From: Lachnospiraceae bacterium
Lineage (GTDB): Bacteria; Bacillota; Clostridia; Lachnospirales; Lachnospiraceae
Direction of reading: 5' to 3'
Length of the DNA: 64,000 nucleotides
NCBI GenBank assembly: GCA_028693165.1
Contig: JAQUVX010000020.1
Location: 1-64,000 of the forward strand
Below the pieces are notes generated by a model. That model was not told the origin of the DNA. It searched no databases and saw nothing but the letters and a program-made list of their open reading frames with translations. This document shows positions 43,601-45,597 of the stretch, piece after piece. Position 1 is the stretch's first letter. The number at the start of each line of letters is the position of its first letter. Both the position numbers and the translations under genes were made by a program.

Positions 43601-44836
43601 TTATTTATCAATCCGGAACCCATAATAAGCATTCATTCCATGCTCATGAATATCCAGACCATCCAGCTGTTCCTGATCGGTCACGCGAAGGCCAAGCGTC
43701 TTATCGATGATCTTAAACACGATGAACATGCACGCGCCGGTCCAGGCCAGCACCGATGCGACACCGATGAGCTGAACAAGAAGCTGACTTGCACCGCCGC
43801 CGTAGAACAGGCCGGCGATCTCATTGCCCGGTGCTGTCGGGGCTGCAAAGAGGCCGACTGCGATCGTGCCCCAGATCCCATTGCAGCAATGAACGGCAAC
43901 CGCACCAACCGGGTCATCCACATGGATCACATAATCACAGAACCATACACCGAAGACAACCAGCACACCCGCTACGATTCCGATGAAAAATGCGCCCAGA
44001 GCGTCCGTTACATCGCAGCCTGCGGTGATTGCCACCAGTCCGGCCAGGGAGGCATTCAGACACATGGAAACATCCGGTTTGCCATATTTGATCCAGGTGA
44101 AAATCATGCAGGTGACCGTTGCCACCGCCGGAGCGATCGTTGTGGTTGCGAAGATGGATGCCAGCTGCGGACCGGAGGTTGCGGCAGCGCCATTAAAGCC
44201 ATACCAGCCAAACCACAGGATGAACACGCCAAGTGCACCAATGACGACATTGTGTCCCGGAATCGCATTTGGGGTTCCGTCCGCATTGTATTTGCCAAGA
44301 CGCGGTCCGAGAAGCCATGCGCCGATCAGTGCGGAGAAGCCGCCTACCATATGGATGGCGCAGGAACCGGCGAAATCGTGAAATCCCATGGCGGACAGCC
44401 AGCCGCCACCCCAGATCCAGTGTGCCTCGATCGGGTAAACCACCGCAGAAATGACTGCGGAATATACACAGTAAGAAATAAATTTGGTTCGCTCTGCCAT
44501 GGCACCGGACACGATGGTCGCGGTGGTCGCACAGAACACCAGGTTGAATACGAAATTGGACCAGTCAAAATTTGCATAGTCTGTGACGATTCCCAGAGTC
44601 GGGATTCCGATGAATCCGCCCAGTGCGTCCTCGCCCAGCAGGATACCAAATCCAAGAAACATGAATACCACCGTGCCGATACAGAAATCCATCAGATTCT
44701 TCATAATAATGTTGCCGGCGTTCTTCGCTCTCGTGAATCCGGTCTCAACCATCGCAAAACCAGCCTGCATAAAGAATACCAGTGCAGCGCCAATCAAAAA
44801 CCATATACCAAATACCTCGCTTAAAATCGCTTCCAT
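43601..44836 (-). CDS. amtB: Ammonium transporter AmtB
   Basis: A 411-residue Amt family channel with about 11 helices. GFAMVETGFTRAKNAGNIIMKN, WSNFVFNLVFCATTATIVSGAMAER, and the twin-His pore positions in DFAGSCAIHMVGG and AVHCCNGIWGTIAVG are visible. The start is the ATG after GAGGAGG; the longer frame adds 17 hydrophilic codons. It lies downstream of glnB, the usual partner: GlnB-type protein blocks AmtB when nitrogen is plentiful. A 223-base spacer between them is rich in secondary structure. Confidence 0.96.
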   Translation of the reverse strand: MEAILSEVFGIWFLIGAALVFFMQAGFAMVETGFTRAKNAGNIIMKNLMDFCIGTVVFMFLGFGILLGEDALGGFIGIPTLGIVTDYANFDWSNFVFNLVFCATTATIVSGAMAERTKFISYCVYSAVISAVVYPIEAHWIWGGGWLSAMGFHDFAGSCAIHMVGGFSALIGAWLLGPRLGKYNADGTPNAIPGHNVVIGALGVFILWFGWYGFNGAAATSGPQLASIFATTTIAPAVATVTCMIFTWIKYGKPDVSMCLNASLAGLVAITAGCDVTDALGAFFIGIVAGVLVVFGVWFCDYVIHVDDPVGAVAVHCCNGIWGTIAVGLFAAPTAPGNEIAGLFYGGGASQLLVQLIGVASVLAWTGACMFIVFKIIDKTLGLRVTDQEQLDGLDIHEHGMNAYYGFRIDK

Positions 44837-44951
44837 AATCGTGACCTCCTCATATAGTGTAAAAGCCTTACTCATACAACCTCCCATTCCAGCCGATGTT
44901 GGCAGAATCAGCCGGGTGTCATCGGACGACGTGGGGGAAGTCCGAATCTGC

Positions 44952-45024
44952 GGTTATCAAATACCAGATACAAAGAAGGGGAGGTAACGATCCATTGAGC
45001 GGACCGTTATCTCCCTTGATAACC
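44952..45024 (-). ncRNA. Nested RNA structure in the glnB-amtB spacer
   Basis: On the minus strand a perfect 9-bp outer stem (GGTTATCAA/TTGATAACC) encloses an inner stem of about 15 bp (GGGAG-TAACG arms, one A-C mismatch, one G-U) at 44979-45015. After the inner stem the sequence is moderately T-rich. It could be an attenuator lowering amtB relative to glnB or a processing site. Drawn by hand from complementarity. Confidence 0.55.
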
Positions 45025-45059: not shown

Positions 45060-45398
45060 CTACAGTGCGGTCTCGCCGCGCTCGCCGGTACGGATACGAA
45101 CCGCATCCTGTACGTCGTAAATGAAAATCTTGCCGTCGCCGTAATTGCCGGTGGTGATTTCATTGACCACACGTGCTACGATGTCCTCGGCGGTAGCTTC
45201 GGCAACGACCGTCTCTACCTTAACCTTCGGAAGCAGGTTCACCATGTACTCGGTTCCGCGGTACATCTGCTTGTAGCCCTTCTGATTACCATAACCCATG
45301 ATGTTGCTGATCATGATACCATTCGCCTTGCAGCCTTCCAGAATCCCCTTCAGGTCCTCCAGCTTCTCCGGCTTGATGATGATTTCCAACTTTTTCAT
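45060..45398 (-). CDS. glnB: P-II nitrogen regulatory protein
   Basis: A 112-residue P-II signal protein, which senses 2-oxoglutarate, ATP/ADP and nitrogen status and docks on AmtB. The T-loop (GYKQMYRGTEYMV) keeps Tyr51, the uridylylation site in proteobacteria, though Firmicutes often lack the modifying enzyme. KIFIYDVQDAVRIRTGERGE is the C-terminal signature. Its pairing with amtB suggests the GlnK type. The message has a long, highly structured leader. Confidence 0.96.
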   Translation of the reverse strand: MKKLEIIIKPEKLEDLKGILEGCKANGIMISNIMGYGNQKGYKQMYRGTEYMVNLLPKVKVETVVAEATAEDIVARVVNEITTGNYGDGKIFIYDVQDAVRIRTGERGETAL

Positions 45399-45440
45399 AC
45401 AGCCTTCCTCCTCGTTCTATTTTCCTCTGAGTCATACCTC

Positions 45441-45556
45441 AAATGAAAGGACCACACCCCGCCGCCGCGTGGGGGAGCTGCTGCGGGGCGTGTTTTGAAG
45501 GAACAAAAGAAGGGCGTCTCTACTGTTGAAGTAGAACGCCCTTGTCCTTTGCATTT
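45441..45556 (-). ncRNA. Putative structured RNA (four-way junction) in the glnB leader
   Basis: On the minus strand the closing stem P0 pairs 45544-45556 with 45441-45452 (AAATG and AAAGGAC with complements; one bulged base). Inside lie three hairpins: P1 45510-45543 (AAGGGCGT and TCTAC stems), P2 45493-45508 (TTTTG/CAAAA), and P3 45453-45492 (CACGCCCC with GGGGTGTG). P1 and P3 abut P0 without linkers. P1 plus the following T-rich stretch could also act as a terminator. I do not recognise a known riboswitch class. Hand-drawn, no covariation tested. Confidence 0.55.
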
Positions 45557-45569
45557 AAGATATGTGTTT

Positions 45570-45597
45570 ATTATAAACATTATTTTTCAAAAGTCAA
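45570..45597 (-). promoter_or_regulatory. Promoter of glnB-amtB
   Basis: TTGACT, 16 bases, TATAAT on the minus strand. The predicted start lies just upstream of the structured leader. Its -35 is only 9 bases from the -35 of the divergent ispE promoter. Confidence 0.7.

Follow-up and report, generated by a model that had tools for sequence, protein, structure and literature searches.

The leader of the glnB gene in a Lachnospiraceae bacterium is probably a promoter-proximal attenuator of the ANTAR antitermination type, with a single hexaloop, which would control glnB and amtB as part of a nitrogen regulon. The computed results on which this reading is built are conserved alternative hairpins in the leader, the spacing between the element and its promoter, the kinds of gene that the element precedes, and an ANTAR gene situated behind glnA. 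The window, i.e., the whole stretch of DNA analysed, comprises positions 1–64,000 of the forward strand of contig JAQUVX010000020.1 (assembly GCA_028693165.1; length 64,000 nucleotides).

In the mechanism that we propose, RNA polymerase would leave a strong promoter and the nascent RNA would first fold into a small hairpin, P2, GGAC[AAGGGC]GUUC (loop in brackets). About 20 nt later, a far more stable terminator hairpin (hairpin 1) would take the same bases, and transcription would stop before glnB-amtB. Under nitrogen limitation, which is the predicted signal, the ANTAR protein linked to glnA (NitR-like) would bind and hold the P2 hexaloop and block the terminator, such that glnB-amtB would be transcribed. 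Further targets of the same switch in the same genome would be the glnA-ANTAR genes, the glutamine synthetase III gene and a gene for an Lrp/AsnC-type regulator.

The glnB gene (45060..45398, minus strand) encodes a PII protein of 112 amino acids (Pfam PF00543, 8.1e-26); downstream on the same strand lies amtB, encoding an ammonium transporter (43601..44887; PF00909, 3.9e-124). All features of the leader are likewise on the minus strand. A promoter ahead of glnB had been predicted from the letters alone, and one is indeed present: TTGACT-16-TATAAT at 45570..45597, of the sigma-70 type, with 11 of 12 consensus positions. The 5′ end of the glnB RNA is predicted at about 45563. P2 (AGGAC[AAGGGC]GUUCU, 45533..45548), with its hexaloop at 45543–45538 and A1, A2 and G4 in that loop, is what the first 35 nt fold into at minimum energy. 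It is mutually exclusive with the terminator-like hairpin 1 (45510..45543), which was delineated by folding, leader alignment and covariation; the U-rich tract of the terminator, UUCUUUUGUU, occupies 45502..45511 (from sequence and folds), and the ribosome-binding site of glnB, AGGAGGAAGG, was located by eye at 45403..45412. The gap between glnB and amtB has an inverted repeat of its own (44978–45016, GGAGGTAACG...CGTTATCTCC), which was seen by eye in one relative (L091) too and may be a second terminator or a processing site.

Hairpin 1 (45543–45510) is followed by CUUUUGUU and resembles an intrinsic terminator that lies near the transcription start; a simple terminator scan did not have it among its listed terminators. 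The 5′ strand of hairpin 1 also forms the smaller P2, and the two structures cannot coexist. When the window leader was folded as nascent RNA, P2 had the lowest energy at 35 nt; at 55 nt the terminator (-19 kcal/mol) had taken its place. Hairpin 1 is the sole arm of the three proposed in the sequence-only reading that was found in relatives: covariance model R2, at E up to 1, placed the element upstream of glnB on the same strand in 60 of the 80 named relatives, many of whose leaders belong to the training set of R2. This count supersedes that of a stricter pattern, by which 32 of 92 leaders were without a site. Among the 20 relatives without the element, the gene directly upstream of glnB on the same strand was amtB in 12 and glutamine synthetase III in two, so that the promoter in these may sit further up.

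Conservation is concentrated in the strand that P2 and the terminator share. An alignment of 46 distinct glnB leaders (from 48 references; L057 and L059 were left out) has six invariant columns, five of which (C, A, G, G, T) fall in the P2/terminator 5′ strand, with the approximate consensus GAACRARGGCGUUYY; the loop, the upper stem and the 3′ strand vary more. In the terminator stem of these leaders, 92.6% of cells are paired, and 66 cells have two-sided changes compared with a shuffled mean of 23.7; for the count of pairs changed on both sides, 44 of 500 shuffles did as well, and for the count of pair types 55 of 500. The terminator pairing was also present in 54 of 55 longer folds of glnB leaders. 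Of the stems whose conservation among glnB leaders was to be checked, hairpin 1 is conserved, and arms 2 and 3 were not seen by eye in the relatives inspected.

For P2, the covariation evidence is mixed. In the 46 glnB leaders the stem is 86.1% paired, with 19 two-sided cells versus 2.8 in shuffles; in a second set (77 rows, mostly not glnB, from 76 loci picked as clear targets and hence not an unbiased sample), it is 88.3% paired, with 25 two-sided cells versus 7.5. The stems of the second set include GAAC/GTTC, AAAC/GTTT, AGAC/GTCT, AGGC/GTCT and AAGC/GCTT; two opposite-strand rows were kept in the pairing counts and removed from the counts of loops and stem types (75 rows). The other measures are not exceptional: pairs with two-sided changes numbered 2 versus 0.6 in the 46 leaders (46 of 500 shuffles did as well) and pair types were matched by 187 of 500; in the second set, the corresponding figures were 191 and 68 of 500. 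Sliding P2 by one column gave as many two-sided cells (22), but with 56% paired rather than 86%. The outermost pair of P2 was unpaired in 31 of the 46 leaders.

A terminator near the promoter could also be unregulated, or could end a short RNA, and would then fix a constant fraction of readthrough. The hairpin alone would account for its own pairing and for the U tract; it leaves unexplained the greater conservation of the 5′ strand than of the 3′ strand, the alternative P2 stem, and the concentration of the element on nitrogen genes that is described below, and we regard this explanation as very unlikely.

The genes preceded by the element were surveyed with two models, one of which (R1) was built solely from glnB leaders and so avoids circularity in a test of the regulon. 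Across 299 genomes of the family, R1 at E<=0.01 found 39 places, of which about 3 would be expected by chance (the E-values are rough). Twenty of these lay before glnB, with one further opposite-strand copy; the remainder preceded genes for glutamine synthetase III (5), glutamine synthetase I (4), amtB (1), an asnB-like protein (1), gltB (1), an ATP-grasp protein (1) and others (5). R2 at E<=0.02 had a hit in 98 of the 299 genomes. At E<=0.01 it gave 90 hits, 89 of which were classified (one opposite-strand duplicate was omitted, and 37 hits of E 0.01–0.02 lay outside the classification), and 68 of the 89 stood before nitrogen genes: glutamine synthetase III (30, including L197), glnB (21), glutamine synthetase I (9), asnB-like (4; the call at L278 rests on 29% identity), gltB (3) and amtB (1). 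Circularly permuted ATP-grasp genes accounted for 7 more, and 14 hits preceded other genes or had no clear nitrogen gene. After removal of the 29 training places and of L277, which has the same sequence as a training row, 38 of 59 hits were before nitrogen genes and 7 before ATP-grasp genes. A scan of the order with R2 found hits in 25 of 295 genomes; 27 of the 28 hits were inspected, and 14 preceded genes for glutamine synthetase, amtB or asnB-like proteins, two preceded an amidotransferase-like gene and an ATP-grasp gene, respectively, and 11 preceded nothing clear.

In the genome of the window itself, the top three R2 hits were before glnB (E 0.03), glutamine synthetase III (0.17) and the Lrp/AsnC gene (0.32); the first of these leaders was in the R2 training set and the other two were not. 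The copy in the window thus has a modest score, below the cut-offs applied when the family and the order were scanned with R2. The glnA leader of this genome, read by eye, has the same hexaloop (stem of 3 bp), and its terminator contains a nested hairpin.

The attenuator in the leader of the Lrp/AsnC-type regulator gene (locus L148, 1683–1748, on G000:C7 of the same genome) belongs to a gene that lies two genes behind the ANTAR gene. The circularly permuted ATP-grasp gene carries the element at L136 (where the Pfam families are PF14403/PF04174), L242, L255–L257, L267 and L273, i.e., in 7 of the 89 family hits, and once in another family (L227); this distribution suggests that it is an unrecognised nitrogen gene. 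At L159 (3342–3489, genome G109), the attenuator is followed directly by a glycine riboswitch (RF00504, 60.6 bits), and a protein-type switch and a metabolite-type switch thus stand in tandem; in an Rfam search of eight further loci, this riboswitch was the only match.

The sequence-only reading had recognised no ANTAR-target features in the leader. This was mistaken: an ANTAR-type hexaloop is present in the alternative fold of the 5′ strand of hairpin 1. The P2 loop of the window, AAGGGC, is an open hexaloop in the fold of the first 35 nt, with A1 and G4 in place, and that fold has no second hexaloop hairpin. For the comparisons of promoter spacing, hit classification and nascent folds among leaders, P2 was located by a loop pattern. 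G4 was found in 63 of 63 leaders and in 75 of 75 rows of the second set, and A2 in 63 of 63. A1 was found in 35 of the 63 leaders (G1 in the other 28) and in 61 of the 75 rows, the remainder having G. Loops with G1 can close a G1–C6 pair, which gives a smaller loop. The P2 stem, with or without this pair, forms in 53 of 55 glnB leaders (folds read by eye); only in 20 of the 55 does the nascent fold of lowest energy leave the hexaloop open.

The element lies very near its promoter. A promoter with at least 9 of 12 consensus positions was found just upstream in 62 of 70 leaders, and in these 62 the distance from the -10 box to the P2 stem had a median of 11 nt and a range of 5–22 nt, the window having the longest gap (22 nt). 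With the textbook start about 7 nt behind the -10 box and the median gap of 11 nt, only a few nucleotides of RNA would precede P2. A second hexaloop upstream (P1) is rejected, as there is no room for it between the -10 box and P2. In the glnB leader of L019, an inverted repeat (GCTTATCGGAG...CTCCGATAAGC, seen by eye) lies between the TATAAT box and the attenuator, which distances the attenuator from the promoter. Another repeat noticed by eye, TGTAACTGTGAAGGTACTGAACAGTTAC, is found upstream of glnB in L029 (before the promoter) and in L058 (between the attenuator and glnB), and is perhaps a small interspersed element.

The same spacing and loop data bear on the possibility that the reader is not an ANTAR protein, and is instead another RNA-binding antiterminator, or a DNA-binding repressor that acts on the GAAC-N6-GTTC inverted repeat downstream of the promoter. 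The median of 11 nt puts the repeat at an operator-like distance from the -10 box, and G is frequent at loop position 1, both of which favour such a reader. It is opposed by the invariance of A2, G4 and the closing C-G pair in the 63 leaders, by stem changes that include G-U pairs as well as two-sided changes, and by the retention of the terminator and its U tract. Further evidence on either side comes from the distribution and sequence of the ANTAR protein itself.

In the genome of the window, a single protein passes the family cut-off for ANTAR (PF03861, 7.2e-18), and its gene is directly behind glnA, with a gap of about 40 nt. The arrangement recurs in relatives: among the best-scoring 30 ANTAR loci, a glnA-like gene is on the same strand no more than 370 nt upstream of the ANTAR gene in 28 and about 430 nt upstream in one, and the proteins of 29 (all but L170) align with that of the window's genome. 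ANTAR was found in 265 of the 299 family genomes and in 96 of the 98 that bear the motif (p 1e-4; lists compared by eye), a co-occurrence that is weak evidence because ANTAR is nearly universal in the family. Two motif-bearing genomes had no ANTAR hit: G160, which is 81% complete, and G219, which is 99% complete. In each, the motif stands ahead of glutamine synthetase III, and a search with the ANTAR protein of the window's genome yielded nothing convincing. In nine genomes (G041, G059, G156, G164, G167, G185, G230, G254 and G296) the motif and the ANTAR gene share a strand, the motif lying 1.7–2.0 kb further upstream, and glnA was behind the motif in all six of these that were inspected (G041, G156, G167, G230, G254 and G296).

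The N-terminal half of the ANTAR protein in the window's genome is receiver-like, and Pfam recognises only its ANTAR domain; the position of the phospho-acceptor Asp is, by eye, the G in 'IIVCGYRM'. Of the 11 RNA contacts of EutV that are named in PMC8934654 and were mapped by eye, three are identical (Lys149, Glu160 and Met172), Tyr164 is His, and Arg142, Lys143, Lys147, Arg168, Asn173, Arg175 and Arg177 differ. That the EutV contacts are mostly changed, and that the 99% complete genome G219 has the motif without ANTAR, are consistent with a reader other than an ANTAR protein; the motif before glnA in six genomes, at the spacing of the ANTAR gene, argues against it, and on all these grounds we consider such a reader unlikely, leaving the ANTAR-type attenuator as the preferred reading.

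The fold to which attention was originally drawn, a four-way junction, does form in the leader of the window as it had been described. The minus-strand sequence 45556–45441 folds with -58.3 kcal/mol (shuffled mean -30.9, sd 3.3, z -8.4; none of 200 shuffles as stable) into a closing stem of 5+7 bp with one bulge, which encloses three hairpins, the first and third of which abut the closing stem. Hairpin 2 is at 45493..45508 and the GC-rich hairpin 3 at 45453..45492. The closing stem can be extended to 20 bp, pairing a 5′ arm at 45544..45564, which starts at about the 5′ end of the RNA and contains the 5′ arm of P2, with a 3′ arm at 45433..45452; scored as a duplex, this gives -25.6 versus -9.0 +/- 1.9 for 1000 shuffles, none of which was as stable.

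This degree of stability, far above that of shuffles, would suit a metabolite riboswitch having the four-way junction as its aptamer, with glutamine, 2-oxoglutarate or ammonium as the ligand, as would the strong pairing of the RNA 5′ end with downstream sequence, in different letters, in the relatives L009, L027 and L018. The comparison with relatives speaks against it. Hairpins 2 and 3 were not seen by eye in the leaders of relatives that were inspected, including the closest, L027, whose GlnB is 94% identical. Only 9 of 54 relatives had a pairing of the RNA 5′ end with the sequence behind the terminator that exceeded shuffles at p<0.05; the 54 were drawn from 60 glnB leaders, L052, L053 and L054 being omitted as identical copies and L019, L028 and L036 as having no clear promoter, and the leader of the window was scored apart. 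A DNA search with the leader in the 23 other genomes of the genus found a match in one, of only 23 nt around the start codon. Furthermore, the junction can form only once the polymerase is past the terminator, and Rfam offers no riboswitch match: release 15, in which riboswitches and T-box are included, gave no gathering-level match in the leader region, and the only matches at E<=10 (PrrF and mir-280) were at chance level and far below their gathering scores. A riboswitch is therefore extremely improbable.

As a conserved fold, the four-way junction is rejected on the grounds of the unseen arms, the rarity of the outer pairing and the genus search. It looks like a species-specific decoration, peculiar to one genome, and does not seem to be the carrier of function. 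A repeat or mobile element as the nature of the leader is ruled out as well, the leader being present in a single copy in its own genome. The on/off switch for nitrogen genes that had been envisaged stands with respect to a leader with a terminating hairpin, by virtue of conservation and the genes preceded, and lacks such support with respect to the four-way junction as the functional fold.

Beyond the attenuator itself, we lean, by a little, towards a broader scheme for the order. The ANTAR attenuators of Lachnospirales would have lost the recruitment hairpin P1, with a single hexaloop at the 5′ end sufficing; the reader would be the glnA-linked ANTAR protein, which has a degenerate receiver and probably senses nitrogen free of phosphorylation, e.g., via glutamine synthetase; and, once readthrough has occurred, the pairing of the 5′ end that is predicted in the window and in a few relatives may set the protein free and protect the end of the RNA.

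How does this element compare with known systems? The cyanobacterial glnA and Downstream-peptide glutamine riboswitches are leader RNAs of nitrogen genes. The glnB leader is like them in that respect and differs in that the window has no Rfam match.

The closer comparison is with the ANTAR-target RNAs, i.e., the eut, nas and ami leaders, which are recognised by EutV, NasR and AmiR. According to passages of PMC3369931 and PMC8164766, published ANTAR targets have two hexaloops; in the former, A1, G4 and the closing pairs of the hexaloop are said to matter, the P2 arm overlaps the terminator, and a search is described in the text which found ANTAR targets of PII and the ammonium transporter. Antitermination by EutV requires both hexaloops, as stated in parts of PMC3369931 and PMC8934654. 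The latter, in its passages on the 2022 structure of EutV with RNA, gives a new definition of the minimal binding motif, a single hexaloop, with contact to both still required to prevent termination, and asks why there are two hexaloops if one protein dimer grips one loop. The element described here is like these RNAs in having a hexaloop with G4 and often A1, a short stem with A-U and C-G beside the loop, a 3′ arm that overlaps the 5′ side of an intrinsic terminator (making the folds mutually exclusive), and a position upstream of nitrogen genes in a genome with an ANTAR protein. It differs in having one hexaloop, without room for P1, at the 5′ end of the RNA, and in the frequent G1 and the A that is always at position 2 in the rows counted. 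It would be ANTAR-like in its working and, having one hexaloop only, lies outside the dual-hairpin definition. The protein, in contrast to those of the EutV type, has neither the phospho-acceptor Asp nor a receiver domain that Pfam recognises.

A search of open-licence PMC papers, apart from supplements such as Table S2 of PMC3369931, turned up no account of a single-hexaloop ANTAR target from Lachnospiraceae; in the survey of premature terminators in PMC2965389, the terms glutamine, nitrogen, ANTAR, P-II, ammonium and Lachnospir* did not occur in a search confined to the main text. As far as passages of PMC6316151 (citing Stutz et al. 2007) portray it, the nearest experimental precedent is NitR of Clostridium saccharobutylicum, an ANTAR protein which induces glutamine synthetase/glutamate synthase (GS/GOGAT) genes under nitrogen limitation. 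The two systems share an ANTAR protein and antitermination control, here predicted, of these genes; compared with what those passages give for NitR, the element here is carried also by glnB-amtB, GSIII, asnB-like and ATP-grasp genes, within the family as well as in further families of its order. If the present reading is true, nitrogen control in common gut bacteria would gain a mechanism and also a candidate regulon (glnB-amtB, glnA-ANTAR, glnN, gltB, asnB-like and a circularly permuted ATP-grasp gene), and widely conserved natural attenuators with a single hexaloop would make the question of why there are two hexaloops directly testable. Most likely, then, the element is a one-hairpin variant of the known kind of ANTAR target.
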